Positions 5,939 to 23,983 of a stretch of 24,087 bases of DNA are shown here, one piece after another. Source of the DNA: a virus; IMG/VR virus record IMGVR_UViG_3300047444_000714, positions 1 to 24,087 of that record. The stretch is one strand, 5' to 3'. Within the stretch, counting starts at the first letter, position 1. Each line of letters begins with the position of its first letter. The translations under genes and the position numbers were made by a program. The notes under the pieces are model-generated. The model did no database searches, was not told the DNA's origin, and was given only the letters and a program-made list of their open reading frames with translations.

Positions 5939-6307
5939 TCAATCTCGGCGTAGCGCTTTCTCGCGTTCGGTATTGAGGTGCGGGTACTTCTCCCGTACCA
6001 GCTTCATCGCTTCATCCGGGGCCAGCCCGGTGCTTCGCAAGTACAGGCCGTAGAGGCACCCCAGCATGCCGTCCCGCTCCCGGTTCTTGGCCGGCTCCTG
6101 GAGTTTGCGCCGGGGCTGGCGCTTGGGCTTCAGCGGGTAGGTCTCCTGGACGCTCGCGATCCTGGCGCCGCAGTCGGTGCAACGGGATCCGGGCTTGGCG
6201 GCGATCATCTGGCCGCACCTAGGGCAGGGCAGTGTACTCTTGCGGCCGTCATGCACCAATGTGACAGTGTCATCGGTTCCGGTCACTACGCGGACAATGT
6301 GCGTCAT
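5939..6307 (-). CDS. Zinc-ribbon phage protein with basic linker
   Basis: This 122-residue protein has a short beta-rich N-terminus (residues 3-20) and a zinc ribbon, Cys28-x2-Cys31 and Cys43-x2-Cys46 (CPRCGQ...CTDCGA). A strongly basic linker follows (KPKRQPRRKLQEPAKNRERDG), then a C-terminal helical region (EAMKLVREKYPHLNTEREKAL). The basic linker next to a ribbon suggests nucleic-acid binding, which is an inference. Its ATG overlaps the upstream stop by 4 bp. It sits directly downstream of two probable replication genes, so a replication accessory role is possible. Confidence 0.78.
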   Translation of the reverse strand: MTHIVRVVTGTDDTVTLVHDGRKSTLPCPRCGQMIAAKPGSRCTDCGARIASVQETYPLKPKRQPRRKLQEPAKNRERDGMLGCLYGLYLRSTGLAPDEAMKLVREKYPHLNTEREKALRRD

Positions 6308-6873
6308 TCTTCGTCTTCCTCGGGATCGTCGGCGGTTTTGTTCGGTTCGTCTTCCGGCTCTTTATTGGACTCCTCGCGGGTCTGGCGCTCCTGTTGCGCC
6401 CGCATGATATCCAGCATGGCGGCGCGCACGTTGTTGGCCTCGCGCTCTTTCCGTTGGCGGTCCTCGATGGGATCTTTGACGCGGCCCAGCTTCCAGTCAT
6501 ATCCTCGCTTGCACCACTCGGGCAGCGTCGTCATCCAGTCCGATCCAGAATGCACGGGCTTACTCCAGCCCTGGTCGGACGCGACCTCGGACATCGGCAC
6601 AAACTCAGGCTCTTCCACCTGGTCGAGGGGGCGGTACTTCTGGCTGTAGATCCCGCGCAACTTCGCCATGCCGCCCGCATCGCGCCAGTCGGAGATCTGC
6701 TCGACGGCGGCTTCGAGCAGCCAGTCGAGGGCCTCTTTCGACTCGATGAACTTCTGAAGGTAGCGAACGATCAGGGTCCGGGCCGTGGCGCCCTTGGGAA
6801 AACCGGACGGACCGAGGAAATCGGCTAAGGTTTGTACGGCATCGATATAGTCGTCTTCTGTTGGGAGTGGCAC
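6304..6873 (-). CDS. Putative replication-associated phage protein
   Basis: This 189-residue protein starts at GTG 6871-6873 with GAGGT upstream, overlapping the stop of the initiator gene's last codons. The N-terminal two thirds is well ordered (YIDAVQTLADFLGPSGFPKGATARTLIVRYLQKF, then EALDWLLEAAVEQISDWRDAGGMAKLRGIYSQKYRP). The C-terminus is charged and probably disordered, ending DDPEEDEE. I recognise the helical core from environmental phages, unnamed. Directly after the initiator, a helicase-loader or primosome partner would be expected here, as in lambda O-P, but no AAA+ Walker motif is present. That role is therefore only a positional guess. Confidence 0.78.
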   Translation of the reverse strand: MPLPTEDDYIDAVQTLADFLGPSGFPKGATARTLIVRYLQKFIESKEALDWLLEAAVEQISDWRDAGGMAKLRGIYSQKYRPLDQVEEPEFVPMSEVASDQGWSKPVHSGSDWMTTLPEWCKRGYDWKLGRVKDPIEDRQRKEREANNVRAAMLDIMRAQQERQTREESNKEPEDEPNKTADDPEEDEE

Positions 6874-6880
6874 GTTAACC

Positions 6881-8095
6881 TCACGCGCTGCTCGTCTTCA
6901 GGTTCTGCGCGTGCGAACGCAGCAGGGCCTTCATCTCGCGTTTCTCTTTCTCCTGGGGCGTTTCCGGGGAGGTGGATGTGCCGTTTGCGAGCCACGCCTC
7001 GAAGGCTTTGCGGGATCGCAGGAAGGCGGCCGCGTGCTTATTGAGAAAACCGAAAGGCCGGGTCAGATTCTTGTTTTGCGTCAAATGCTGGAGCACGCGC
7101 AGCAACAGCCCGGGCTCGATGTCGCGGCGGGCGTCACGGCACTGCCGGATCAGGCCTTCGACCTGTTCGTCGTTGGCGGTCTTGTCGAGTGAGTGGAGGT
7201 GGTCGCGTACAGGCTCGAATTCGTCGGTTTCGGGCTTGGCCTTCGTTGGATTGGAACGGGCGATCGGCGGCGGCGTTTTCCCCTCGTCCGCCGCCGCCGC
7301 CGGTCCCCCCGTTTTCAATATCTCTGGCGCAGACGCACTCTTCTTATTCAAAGCTTCTACAGTTCTATAGATAGGGGCCCCATTTGTCCGGAACGTGGCG
7401 GACACGTTGTCCGGAACGTCCCGGACAAGTTGTCCGACGGTTCCGGACAAGTCAGAATCCGCCGGCAATTCGGTCTTCTCCACTTCTTCGCCATCAGCGA
7501 CCGGCGGCACCCAGGTCTCGCGTTCTCGCTTCCAATCCTGTAGAATCTCTAGTTGGATAGACCGGAGGCCTGCTTGCGCTTGAGCCACAGTGGACTGCAG
7601 TTGTTCATGAATCAACCGTGTGGCGGGCCTTCGGTCGAGCCAATATGTTGTAAATAAACCGAATTTCGCCACATCTTCGCTTTTGTCCGATACATCCGGA
7701 CAGAGGGGAACAAGAGGCGAAAATCCATCCCACTGGGTCATACGATCTTCGTCTAAAATGACCCATCCTCTCGCCGCGCAAAACTGAACCGCCTCGCTAA
7801 CGCGCCGCCGGTCCATCCCGGTCTCTTTGGAGCAATCTGCTCGTGATTTTTCCCTTCCGTTCGGGTGAACCGGACGGTCTGAGTGATTGCCGGCCGCGTA
7901 CAACGTGAGCCACGCCATGAAGCGGGACGGGCCGTCCACGTCGGGATCGCACATCATGCGGACCAGCATGGCGTTGAACTGCGGGCTGAACGGCGCAGCA
8001 TTGTGGCGTGTGAACCACTCTGCGAATCGCTCGTTCGAATACGGCGCTACTGGGCCGGGCATCGGCGTCTCGCGGATCGGCGTGGCGGTACTCAC
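6881..8095 (-). CDS. Replication initiator-like protein (lambda O-type layout)
   Basis: This 404-residue protein starts at GTG 8093-8095 with GGAGG upstream, overlapping the leader ORF stop. Residues 20-130 look like a winged-helix DNA-binding domain, including SRADCSKETGMDRRRVSEAVQFCAARGWVILD, which reads as a recognition helix and wing. A Ser/Pro/Ala/Asp-rich linker (about 205-290) follows, then a helical C-terminal domain (about 295-395). The linker is encoded by tandem DNA dyads flanked by AT-rich DNA (7339-7450). That is the same plan as lambda gene O, where the origin iterons lie in the middle of the initiator gene. Primosomal or other DnaD/Replic_Rep-type functions are alternatives. 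Family membership is by layout, not by a specific motif. Confidence 0.75.
   Translation of the reverse strand: MSTATPIRETPMPGPVAPYSNERFAEWFTRHNAAPFSPQFNAMLVRMMCDPDVDGPSRFMAWLTLYAAGNHSDRPVHPNGREKSRADCSKETGMDRRRVSEAVQFCAARGWVILDEDRMTQWDGFSPLVPLCPDVSDKSEDVAKFGLFTTYWLDRRPATRLIHEQLQSTVAQAQAGLRSIQLEILQDWKRERETWVPPVADGEEVEKTELPADSDLSGTVGQLVRDVPDNVSATFRTNGAPIYRTVEALNKKSASAPEILKTGGPAAAADEGKTPPPIARSNPTKAKPETDEFEPVRDHLHSLDKTANDEQVEGLIRQCRDARRDIEPGLLLRVLQHLTQNKNLTRPFGFLNKHAAAFLRSRKAFEAWLANGTSTSPETPQEKEKREMKALLRSHAQNLKTSSA
7339..7450. other. Candidate replication origin (tandem dyads plus AT-rich stretch)
   Basis: Three dyad units lie end to end at 7384-7405, 7407-7428 and 7430-7450, at 23-bp intervals. 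Unit 2 has 8-bp arms TTGTCCGG/CCGGACAA around 6 bp. Unit 3 has 7-bp arms TTGTCCG/CGGACAA around 7 bp. Unit 1 has the same left arm and a degenerate right arm. The adjoining 7339-7374 is clearly AT-rich within a GC-rich gene. Iterons beside an AT-rich melting region inside an initiator gene is lambda-like. No replication data exist here. Confidence 0.55.
7683..7703. repeat. Isolated TTGTCCG dyad in initiator gene
   Basis: The site is TTGTCCG-ATACATC-CGGACAG, 21 bp, with one arm mismatch. Its centre differs by only one base from the centre of the site at 10145-10165. It lies about 230 bp from the tandem cluster, in the same gene. Confidence 0.6.
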
Positions 8096-8154
8096 CGGAC
8101 ACCTCCGGCGATCATCTGTGTACGAAAAGTAACTGTTCTAAGTAGGGCATTCAT
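8092..8154 (-). CDS. 20-residue leader ORF coupled to the initiator gene
   Basis: ATG at 8152-8154 has CAGGAG six bases upstream, the clearest ribosome-binding site in this part of the operon. The frame encodes MNALLRTVTFRTQMIAGGVR and stops at TGA 8092-8094, which overlaps the initiator GTG as GTGA. This geometry fits translational coupling that sets initiator output. The peptide itself shows no motif. A chance ORF is possible because it is short. Confidence 0.5.
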   Translation of the reverse strand: MNALLRTVTFRTQMIAGGVR

Positions 8155-8335
8155 AGTAAACTCCTGCACACGAGTGAAATTGTGGGCTTGCAAGAACGCC
8201 TGAGGCGGGTAAAATCTAAGACAGGGCGTGAGTAGTCATCCACTCACGTGCCTTCGCTTAGCTCGGCGTTCTTATGCACACGTGCTTGGCTCAATCCCGT
8301 TACCTTGCGAGTCCTGGAAGAGAGCTATGTACGTG
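8155..8335. other. Non-coding region with nested inverted repeats
   Basis: No convincing gene is seen. AAGAACGCC (8192-8200) and GGCGTTCTT (8265-8273) are exact 9-bp inverted repeats. Inside them CGTGAGT (8227-8233) pairs with ACTCACG (8242-8248) around an 8-base loop. A weak rightward promoter (TTGCAA at 8188-8193, 16-bp spacer, TAAAAT at 8210-8215) would start a transcript near the inner hairpin. The leftward operon promoter must also lie in or near here, but I could not find a strong one. It may be a structured RNA, operator or leader. Confidence 0.4.
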
Positions 8336-8581
8336 TTATTCGGCGGCGCCGGGCGGCGGTCGGATGAATTTGGGCGGGCTCACGAATGGCCGCGGCCCAA
8401 AGGCGAAAGTGACATAGTGCAGGTTGATCTGGCGGTTTAGATAACTTGCATTATTGAATCCGTGGTATCCGTGGTCTGGCTGACACAAACCAATAGAAAT
8501 AAAGTGGTTCGGGCTCTCGGGCTCCGGGGCGGAAACTCGCGCGGGGCCTGAGTGCCTGTTGCTGCTGACCGTATTGTTCAT
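8336..8581 (-). CDS. Small protein of unknown function
   Basis: I choose ATG 8579-8581, preceded by GGGAAGGGGA, giving 81 residues; the longer open frame to 8809 lacks support. The N-terminus is polar (MNNTVSSNRHSGPARVSAPE). The middle, NHFISIGLCQPDHGYHGFNNASYLNRQINLHYVTFAFGP, is rich in Asn, His and Tyr and looks beta-rich. The C-terminus is Pro-rich. The family is not recognised. Two mutually exclusive hairpins lie in its leader (8593-8631). It stands alone between non-coding stretches, which is unusual in this packed genome. Confidence 0.5.
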   Translation of the reverse strand: MNNTVSSNRHSGPARVSAPEPESPNHFISIGLCQPDHGYHGFNNASYLNRQINLHYVTFAFGPRPFVSPPKFIRPPPGAAE

Positions 8582-9012
8582 GGGTCCCCTTCCCTCACCA
8601 TCATGTGAGGATGAAGGAGCGACGATGATGGTCGGTGAACGGGGAGTCCACCGGGCGCCGCCCCTCCAATGCTCTACACAGCGCACGACCGCTGCGGCCC
8701 CGATCTGGTTCGTGGCCGAACCGAGGCAAGACCAAAGTATCCGAAAGTAACCGAGGATGCAAGCGGAAAATCGTTCCGCGCGCACCCACAACGATCTAAA
8801 AGCGTGCATTCATGAATGGCTTTCTTGAACAGCCTTTCACCATTCTGTGCACTACCAAAAATACTGCCCGAGTCTGTCGCCCGGGTCTACCCTGTTATAC
8901 ACCAGCAACCGAACTTTTGGGCCTTCGGAATTTGGGATAATTGAAGCGAAAAGCCTTTCACTTCACGCCCTGACATCAACCTTCCCCAGGTGGTGGCCGG
9001 GCGATTTTGTTC
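8582..9012. other. Gene-poor stretch with leader hairpins and a 12-bp palindrome
   Basis: I see no supported gene in these 431 bp. CCTCAC (8593-8598) can pair with GTGAGG (8605-8610). Overlapping it, CCATCAT (8598-8604) can pair with ATGATGG (8625-8631), so the two hairpins exclude each other. CATTCATGAATG (8807-8818) is a perfect palindrome. AGCCTTTCAC occurs twice (8831-8840 and 8952-8961). The region is less GC-rich than the genes and probably contains the promoter for the 8336-8581 gene. Confidence 0.4.
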
Positions 9013-9632: not shown

Positions 9633-10088
9633 ATGACAGAAGCGAAACGCATAGAGATGGTGGATGAGTTCGGGGCGCTCTCGGACGAGCTGGCCCGGAT
9701 CGCGCCCGCCATACAGCGGCATGCGCTGCTCAAGGCCGAGATCGAGAGCTGGTACCGGCAAGAGCCGCCGGACGAGAACTACGTTGCCGTGGGAACCCGC
9801 TACGAGGTCCAGATCGGGGTGCGGGAGTTCCGGCGCAAGATCACGACGATCGGCATGACGAGGTTGTTCACCGTGCTGGGCAAGGTGAAATTCCTCGGCC
9901 TCTGCACATTTCCGCTGACCCTGATGGACCAGGTCACGACCATCGCGGACCAGAACCGGATTTGCGAAAAGAACCGCACCGGACCACGCAGCATTAAGTC
10001 CGTGGCGCTGGTCATCGAGGCGCCGGCCAAGCAGCAATCCAGGAGAAAGCCCCCGGCAGCTACCTCGACGGAGGCGGTAAGTGCTTGA
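9633..10088 (+). CDS. Conserved phage protein, possible nuclease inhibitor-like
   Basis: This 151-residue protein starts at ATG 9633 with AAAGGG upstream. It opens with a helix (MTEAKRIEMVDEFGALSDELARIAPAIQRHALLKAEIESWY), then the strand-rich GTRYEVQIGVREFRRKIT. A helical TRLFTVLGKVKFLGLCTFPLTLMDQV follows, then a basic tail. The initial helix with its charged spacing recalls phage Gam-type host-nuclease inhibitors, but the protein lacks their full coiled coil. I recognise the family only as an unnamed phage protein. It opens the rightward middle operon. Confidence 0.78.
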   Translation: MTEAKRIEMVDEFGALSDELARIAPAIQRHALLKAEIESWYRQEPPDENYVAVGTRYEVQIGVREFRRKITTIGMTRLFTVLGKVKFLGLCTFPLTLMDQVTTIADQNRICEKNRTGPRSIKSVALVIEAPAKQQSRRKPPAATSTEAVSA

Positions 10089-10116
10089 CGTATTACGGTG
10101 ATTAGCCTCAGAATGG

Positions 10117-10144: not shown

Positions 10145-10165
10145 TTGTCCGATACGTCCGGACAA
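10145..10165. promoter_or_regulatory. Intergenic TTGTCCG dyad matching the origin units
   Basis: TTGTCCG-ATACGTC-CGGACAA is a perfect 7-bp-arm dyad, 21 bp long. It has the same architecture as unit 3 of the candidate origin and almost the same centre as 7683-7703. A further half-site TTGTCCG lies at 10219-10225. I found no other full copies in the window. Confidence 0.6.
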
Positions 10166-11211: not shown

Positions 11212-11859
11212 ATGAATGCAGCTATCTACGCAAGAGTCAGCACCACTGATCAGAACTGCGAAATGCAACTGACCGAATTACGGACGTACTGCGAACGTCG
11301 CGGGTGGACCATCTCCGCGGAATACGTCGATACCGGATGGAGCGGCGCCAAGGCCTCGAGGCCGCAATTGAACCAGCTGAAGCAGGACGCCAGGAAGCGG
11401 CGCTTCGACGTGGTGATCGTCTGGAAGTTGGACCGTTGGGGCAGGAGCGTCACCGACTCGATCGCCGGCATCCAGGAGCTCGTCAGCCTCGGGGTGCGGT
11501 GGATCGCGGTTACGCAGAACCTGGACACCGACGAGTCGAACCCGATGGCGCGGTTCCTCCTGCACATCATGGCCGCGTTCGCCGAACTCGAGCGGGAGAT
11601 GATTCGGGAGCGGGTGCGGGACGGTATGAGGCAGCACCGGACCAACGTGAAGGCTGGCAGGCTGGGCAAGGACCTGCACACGAAGTCCGGCAAGGATCTG
11701 CCGGCGGGACGGCCACCGAAGATATTCCCGCGGGATGAGGCCGCCGAACTGCGCGCCGGGGGCATGAGCTGGCGCGACATCGGGGAAGCCCTCAACGTGC
11801 CGTTTGCGACGGTCCGCCGGGCCCTCGCGAATGCCGCCCCACCCCCAGGTGTGTCATAA
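11212..11859 (+). CDS. Small serine recombinase (resolvase/invertase type)
   Basis: This 215-residue protein has the N-terminal catalytic domain of small serine recombinases. AIYARVST carries Arg8 and catalytic Ser10, GWSGAKASRPQL follows, and KLDRWGRS includes Asp74, Arg75 and Arg78. Residues 120-150 form the long dimer helix (LEREMIRERVRDGMRQHR). A C-terminal helix-turn-helix follows at about 185-210 (AAELRAGGMSWRDIGEALNVPFATVRRAL). The length is that of Gin/Tn3-resolvase-type enzymes, which invert or resolve DNA, and not of large serine integrases. No ribosome-binding site precedes the ATG. Short repeats in front of it (GGTACT at 11154 and 11172; CTGCAC at 11184 and 11197) could be parts of a recombination or control site. 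Confidence 0.9.
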   Translation: MNAAIYARVSTTDQNCEMQLTELRTYCERRGWTISAEYVDTGWSGAKASRPQLNQLKQDARKRRFDVVIVWKLDRWGRSVTDSIAGIQELVSLGVRWIAVTQNLDTDESNPMARFLLHIMAAFAELEREMIRERVRDGMRQHRTNVKAGRLGKDLHTKSGKDLPAGRPPKIFPRDEAAELRAGGMSWRDIGEALNVPFATVRRALANAAPPPGVS

Positions 11860-23110: not shown

Positions 23111-23983
23111 ATGGCCCTTCAACTCCTCGATCTTTTCGAGACGACGCTATCCGCCAGTTATACGGCGGGAGGTTCTTCGCTGACGCTCACGTCCGTCAGT
23201 GGCCTGCCGTCGTCGGGCGATTACTGGATTGCCGTATACGATCCGGCGAATGCCGCGAGCACCTACGAGGTCTTCAAAGTCACGGGCGCGGCCAGCGGCT
23301 CGGTAATCCCCGTAACCGGGGAGAAGGCATACGGCAGCGTGCTGACCGCATCGGCGCTTACCCAGCTAAAGCTGGACATTAACGGTTCAGGCATCTCGAT
23401 CTACACGGGTGTCGGCCGCCCGGATGGCGTAGGGCCGGACCTCGCGCCGCACAACATGACATCGAATACGGCGCCGTCCCCCTATGTTGCATCCGCATCG
23501 AGCGAGTTGAACCCGGCGTGGAAGGCCTTCGACGGCACGACGGGAATGTGGACCTCTACCGGCAGCACGGGATGGCTCAAACTGGACCTGGGGTCCGCCA
23601 AATCTCTGGGTAAATACGGATGGAAGAGCGGCCCTTCCGGCAATCCGCAACAGCACCCCAGGAACTGGACCTTCTCCGGCTCGAACGACAACAGCACGTT
23701 CAATACCGTGGATACTCAGACGGCCATTGCGTCGGTGGGTTCATCGGTCACTCAGCTATTCACCATGTCTCCGACGGTGGCGTATCGCTTTTGGAAATTC
23801 GATGTGACGGTGATCAACGGCGGCAGCAACGTGGAGTTTGACGAATTCTACCTCTATCAGGCCGCCACTGTGTTTACCGGCGGGGTGACCGGCGATCTGT
23901 ATTTAGACACGTCCGGTCTGGGATTGTACGGACCCAAAACGTCCGGTGGAGCATGGCCCTACATAGGGAAACTGTCTCCGTAG
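23111..23983 (+). CDS. Discoidin (F5/8 type C) domain receptor-binding candidate
   Basis: This 290-residue protein has an N-terminal beta-rich segment (1-100) that may attach it to the virion. Residues 115-250 form an F5/8 type C galactose-binding-like domain. It contains SPYVASASSELNPAWKAFDG, WTSTGSTGWLKLDLGSAKSLGKYGW, RNWTFSGSNDNSTFNTVDT, and YRFWKFDVTVINGGSNVEFDEFYLY. The C-terminus (GDLYLDTSGLGLYGPKT, then GGAWP) is a motif seen in phage tail-fibre proteins. Such domains bind carbohydrates, so this is a likely adhesin. The start is ATG 23111 with GAAGAGAG upstream. Confidence 0.82.
   Translation: MALQLLDLFETTLSASYTAGGSSLTLTSVSGLPSSGDYWIAVYDPANAASTYEVFKVTGAASGSVIPVTGEKAYGSVLTASALTQLKLDINGSGISIYTGVGRPDGVGPDLAPHNMTSNTAPSPYVASASSELNPAWKAFDGTTGMWTSTGSTGWLKLDLGSAKSLGKYGWKSGPSGNPQQHPRNWTFSGSNDNSTFNTVDTQTAIASVGSSVTQLFTMSPTVAYRFWKFDVTVINGGSNVEFDEFYLYQAATVFTGGVTGDLYLDTSGLGLYGPKTSGGAWPYIGKLSP

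Follow-up and report, generated by a model that had tools for sequence, protein, structure and literature searches.

Introduction

Lambdoid phages carry their iterons and an AT-rich tract in the middle of gene O, the AT-rich tract being required for unwinding, and within lambda O the iterons fall between the DNA-binding and the helicase-recruiting domains (PMC7466680). A similar placement is described for the RepA_N plasmid pSK41, where four Rep boxes occupy a central position in rep, the N-terminal domain binds them, and the central, ori-encoded domain serves as a linker; in pPR9, an HTH_36 N-terminus takes the place of that of RepA_N (PMC5703833). The architecture of an origin inside the initiator gene is therefore already known, and the locus described here would be a new member.

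We analysed a stretch of viral DNA of 24,087 nucleotides, hereafter the window (positions 1 to 24,087 of IMG/VR record IMGVR_UViG_3300047444_000714), which has a GC content of 60% and carries P22-like portal and coat genes. Like lambda ori and the origins of Stx phages (PMC7466680), it has dyad iterons in the middle of a putative initiator gene and an AT-rich flank, with the same polarity. Unlike lambda, it uses another iteron sequence, with three tandem and two isolated dyads (four in lambda, six in Stx phages), its protein has no detectable sequence relation to O, and no P-like loader was recognised in the window. It also differs from pSK41 and pPR9, which are Gram-positive plasmids with a different binding site, and its 404-aa protein has no Pfam match to the RepA_N domain. 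Altogether, we consider it probable that the gene at 6881-8095 (minus strand), with its dyads and AT-rich tract, contains a lambda-type in-gene replication origin, which would lie at about 7340-7450. An earlier note on this DNA had suggested a lambda-ori-like layout, and that suggestion is now supported in the window and, independently, by dozens of other phages for which the iteron was the only search criterion, as well as by a relative identified through its portal gene.

Results

Five dyads and an AT-rich tract

The features of the locus are as follows.

6881..8095, minus strand: putative replication initiator gene, an ORF of 404 aa with a GTG start, first in the leftward early operon
7703..7954, minus strand: probable winged-helix (HTH_36-like) DNA-binding domain, residues about 48-131, profile-profile match
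6884..7219, minus strand: C-terminal helical region, residues about 293-404, helices in single-sequence AF2 models, pLDDT 40-60
6304..6873, minus strand: next gene of the operon, an ORF of 189 aa
7344..7373, no strand: AT-rich tract, candidate DNA unwinding element, the most AT-rich 30-mer of the window
7384..7405, no strand: dyad 1 (iteron), TTGTCCGGAACGTGGCGGACAC, TTGTCCG-N8-CGGACAC
7407..7428, no strand: dyad 2 (iteron), TTGTCCGGAACGTCCCGGACAA, TTGTCCG-N8-CGGACAA, perfect
7430..7450, no strand: dyad 3 (iteron), TTGTCCGACGGTTCCGGACAA, TTGTCCG-N7-CGGACAA
7683..7703, no strand: dyad 4, TTGTCCGATACATCCGGACAG, isolated, inside 6881-8095 (minus strand), directly after the winged-helix coding region
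10145..10165, no strand: dyad 5, TTGTCCGATACGTCCGGACAA, isolated, intergenic

The pattern TGTCCG-N5..9-CGGACA matches five times in the window, compared with a mean of 0.01 and a maximum of 1 in dinucleotide shuffles. Dyads 1-3 start 23 and 23 bp apart, so that the three 21-22 bp TTGTCCG dyads at 23-bp spacing described in the earlier note are indeed found at 7384-7450; its count holds for this cluster but had missed dyads 4 and 5. The centre of the dyads is not constant (7 or 8 nt), and the half-sites of dyads 1-3 alternate N3 and N7-8 with a period of 22-23 bp, about two helical turns.

The codon phases of the four dyads inside the gene are 0, 1, 0 and 2, and the peptides that they encode (VSATFRTN, LVRDVPDN, LSGTVGQ and LCPDVSDK) are unrelated. 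Because they span all three reading frames, conserved amino acids do not explain them. When the codons of the gene were shuffled 20,000 times with the protein and its codon usage kept fixed, 19,226 shuffles contained no dyad, 763 contained one, 11 contained two and none reached three, compared with four in the actual gene. What is repeated is thus DNA, not peptide, and amino-acid repeats as the source of the dyads, a possibility that the earlier note had itself raised, are ruled out by the codon phases and the synonymous shuffles.

The AT-rich stretch that had been noticed beside the dyads proved to be the extreme of the 24 kb: 7344-7373 is 73% AT (window mean 40%), and just 0.04% of 50-bp windows have a lower nearest-neighbour stability. 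It lies 11 bp from dyad 1 and, read along the gene, follows the dyads (3' side). GC skew had been put forward as a check on the origin; its cumulative minimum, at 6686, is compatible with an origin here but confounded by gene direction. The stretch of about 900 bp between the early and the rightward genes (8096-9012) lacks a convincing gene and includes the window's most AT-rich 50-mer (at 8111) and a perfect DnaA-box-like TTATGCACA (at 8272).

The N-terminus of the putative initiator weakly resembles HTH_36 initiators at the profile level

The 404-aa protein has no match in Pfam or PHROG up to E 10, to lambda O or any replication-initiation family included, and no close relatives were found in viral contigs, genome contigs, phages or plasmids; by these searches, membership of the lambda O family was not detected. 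In profile-profile comparisons with hhalign, its N-terminus matched three heavily overlapping HTH_36-type initiator profiles with scores of 22-23 (E 2-4e-4, probability 16-21% only), compared with at most 12.1 for 30 shuffles and at most 15.1 for other window proteins, the highest of which was the serine recombinase, which has its own HTH. Residues 48-131 align over the entire HTH_36 domain. Three other profiles (a DnaD-like subset and the epsilon15 type) gave no match with the N-terminus, and direct searches with HMMs built from TGTCCG initiators did not reach the protein, profile-profile comparison alone doing so.

AF2 models of the full-length protein and of the domain were of low confidence. 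The single-sequence model of the domain shows a helix-helix-(strand)-helix-helix order with a core pLDDT of about 70 and an unresolved wing, its helices standing at matching places; Foldseek searches with it returned nothing meaningful. We regard an N-terminal winged helix as probable, from a weak profile match. Dyads 1-3 correspond to residues 216-238 of 404 and dyad 4 to residues 131-138, which places the array after the putative winged helix and within the gene. The earlier note had set the dyads in a linker between a winged-helix and a C-terminal domain: the linker agrees with the low predicted order of residues 216-238, while the winged helix depends on that weak match.

Residues about 293-404 are a candidate helicase-recruitment part. 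The 189-aa product of the next gene, with no family match in Pfam or PHROG and no relatives found, is a candidate helicase-loader partner by position only.

TGTCCG arrays recur inside phage initiator genes

Viral contigs were scanned, blind to their proteins, for TGTCCGN{6,9}CGGACAN{1,5}TGTCCG. At least 120 contig stretches matched, and a control with the scrambled arm TGCTCG matched 108 in the whole collection; the first count being a lower bound, the contrast between the two rests on clustering and not on raw counts. At least six half-sites within 150 bp were present at 74 of the 118 TGTCCG loci listed vs 3 of the 108 control loci, even though TGCTCG is the commoner hexamer elsewhere in its own loci. 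A looser first scan for dyads had yielded predominantly single dyads among the matches listed, and an exact search for the isolated dyad core recovered six contigs with no sign of an array.

The TGTCCG arrays lie mostly within ORFs, where they encode peptides in several frames. When 48 array-covering ORFs were drawn at random, 15 matched phrog_678 ('replication initiation O-like'), 14 phrog_270 ('replication initiation protein'), 14 phrog_428 and 13 phrog_391. In 48 control ORFs (TGCTCG), no initiation family was found among the 25 commonest PHROG families, single matches being possible below those. Most of the TGTCCG matches listed fell in linkers of phage replication initiators, of "O-like", DnaD-like and HTH_36 types, unlike those of the scrambled-arm control, and an HTH_36 match was obtained in 20 of 55 selected array ORFs. 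With our own profiles, 38 of the 95 array ORFs with at least four half-sites were of the HTH_36 or epsilon15 type, with a median array start at residue 109; the remaining 57 fall outside both profiles, some being initiators by PHROG and some GC-rich ORFs whose arrays may be due to chance. Around 53 arrays, a 30-mer whose AT content reached at least the 99.9th percentile of the locus was found in 38% of 3' flanks, 3.8% of 5' flanks and 1.5% of random positions.

Adjacent half-sites outside the searched pattern favour direct spacings of 11 and 22-23 bp and, where divergent, gaps of 3-4. These distances correspond to helical turns, as would be expected if proteins were bound next to one another. 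The exact geometry of the window (N3 and N7-8 alternating, period 22-23) was seen in five contigs among the matches listed, and all five code for HTH_36 initiators of a single family, in which the array immediately follows the winged helix. Like the HTH_36 initiator genes L187, L208, L229, L381, L382 and others, the window gene combines the same half-site with the N3/N7-8 alternation and the 22-23 bp period, and, as in the L187 type, its array occupies the linker that follows the winged helix, which is probable in the window, with an AT-rich tract 3' of it. The symmetric unit of the L187 type is CGGACA-N3-TGTCCG, whereas the better conserved unit of the window is TGTCCG-N7/8-CGGACA, which also occurs as isolated sites, and the proteins are similar at the profile level only. 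In tblastn searches, the L187 and L160 initiators each retrieved about 100 Mycobacterium phage records. Dyads far from the cluster were present at 6 of the 120 TGTCCG loci listed, so that dyad 5 of the window, 2.7 kb away, is unusual for the class.

The same half-sites are found in cultured phages. Salmonella phage epsilon15 and Pseudomonas phage phiPSA1 each have five TGTCCG/CGGACA half-sites, all within the annotated initiator gene, the rest of the 3.4 kb examined containing no others; their initiators belong to another protein family (profiles without overlap with HTH_36), and the spacing is partly different. In epsilon15 (L388, 1501-2178), the TGTCCGC half-sites of the initiator gene are followed by the purine run AGAGAAGAGAAG, which is also present in phiPSA1 and in Klebsiella phage BUCT711.

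Phages with TGTCCG in their initiator genes range in GC content from about 32% to 74%. By sequence, the TGTCCG iteron is not peculiar to the phage of the window but recurs in many phage initiators, and the best reading is that it is a widely used initiator half-site. The earlier view that the iteron is unrelated to that of lambda stands in that the sequence differs, with the qualification of this recurrence. A literature search, which covered sources other than subscription journals, found no description of TGTCCG phage iterons.

The position of the array is conserved while its sequence follows the initiator

The closest structural relative with an early region, contig L150/L151 (39.9 kb), was found via its portal protein (41% identity). 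In its HTH_36 initiator gene, four GGTGTCA..TGTCACC-type dyads come immediately after the winged helix, and an AT-rich tract lies 3' of them. At the corresponding place, initiators of other phages have GGGCAC (a Bradyrhizobium phage), GGCCAC (a Geobacillus phage) or ATGCCA (a Klebsiella phage). In these sequences, the location of the array is conserved among initiators, while its sequence follows the initiator. In a distant portal relative (24.5%), the HTH_36 initiator gene (L140, 5084-6004) has five ACCCGT hexamers after the winged helix. A further contig, L126/L152 (G003; 17.3 kb, from another metagenome), begins at about 12140 of the window, encodes proteins identical to those of the window from there on and extends past the window end, the product of 23111-23983 being the first to differ (95.7%).

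Other functions for the dyads are improbable

The dyads might be operators of a phage transcription regulator, some falling inside a gene by chance, with no origin involved. Dyads 4 and 5 are isolated, as operators are, and dyad 5 is intergenic, ahead of the rightward genes and about 30 bp downstream of a promoter-like TTGACG-18-CAGAAT (10085-10114). However, the window has no recognisable repressor gene, three of the five sites are tandem in a coding region, far from a promoter and beside the AT-rich maximum, and in other phages the TGTCCG arrays are in initiator genes and rarely elsewhere. We therefore consider a purely regulatory role unlikely. In a lambda-type origin, dyad 5 could still act on the rightward promoter or, through looping, be coupled to the origin.

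A role as RNA hairpins in the initiator mRNA, acting on translation, stability or attenuation, is considerably less probable. The transcript of 7370-7470 does fold at -52.4 kcal/mol vs -34.4 kcal/mol for shuffles (z -5.3), but every DNA dyad folds as RNA and the loops are not conserved. Moreover, direct repeats and overlapping palindromes at helical-turn spacing are also seen among the half-sites of other phages, which favours a protein on duplex DNA over RNA.

We give similarly little credence to a resolution or recombination site in which the three dyads would be accessory sites for the small serine recombinase (resolvase/invertase type; gene at 11212-11859). Classical res sites do consist of three dyads, and the window has a recombinase of the appropriate type (no large integrase was recognised). 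However, known res subsites are longer than the 21-22 bp seen here, and the dyads are inside a different gene, 3.8 kb away from that of the recombinase, whereas a res site would be expected to have three dyads of at least 25 bp adjoining the recombinase gene. No such dyad is present in contig L153, which covers 2.1 kb upstream of a recombinase with 61% identity to this one.

Finally, partition (ParB-like) centromeres or copy-control sites around a phage-plasmid initiator were rejected as equally improbable. Inverted repeats dispersed near a replication gene are reminiscent of the centromeres of phage N15, but no ParA or ParB gene was noticed among the window ORFs and the class-wide association is with initiators.

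Discussion

A lambda-type origin would work as follows. The N-terminal winged helix of the 6881-8095 product would bind the TTGTCCG half-sites in the linker-coding stretch of its own gene, and a nucleoprotein complex of several initiator dimers, assembled on the three tandem dyads, would put strain on the AT-rich tract. The strands would open at 7344-7373, and the C-terminal part, perhaps with the product of the next gene, would load the host DnaB helicase. Points against this reading are that the protein matches no initiator family directly and its winged helix only modestly at the profile level, that dyads 4 and 5 stand apart from the cluster, and that the dyad centre varies in length.

This reading locates the probable origin of the window's phage and assigns a putative function to an orphan gene. 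Its iteron pointed to a large number of phage initiators that carry this half-site at the corresponding position, so sequence alone could suffice to locate origins in many uncultured phages. A further question is why one hexamer recurs across initiators without detectable relation; epsilon15 and phiPSA1 offer cultured phages that carry these half-sites. We suggest, tentatively, that initiators of at least two mutually dissimilar families (the HTH_36 type and the epsilon15 type), possibly with the window orphan as a third, share the TGTCCG origin half-site. If so, initiators could recognise each other's origins, and such cross-recognition would be relevant to phage interference, to satellites and to the recombination of replication modules.
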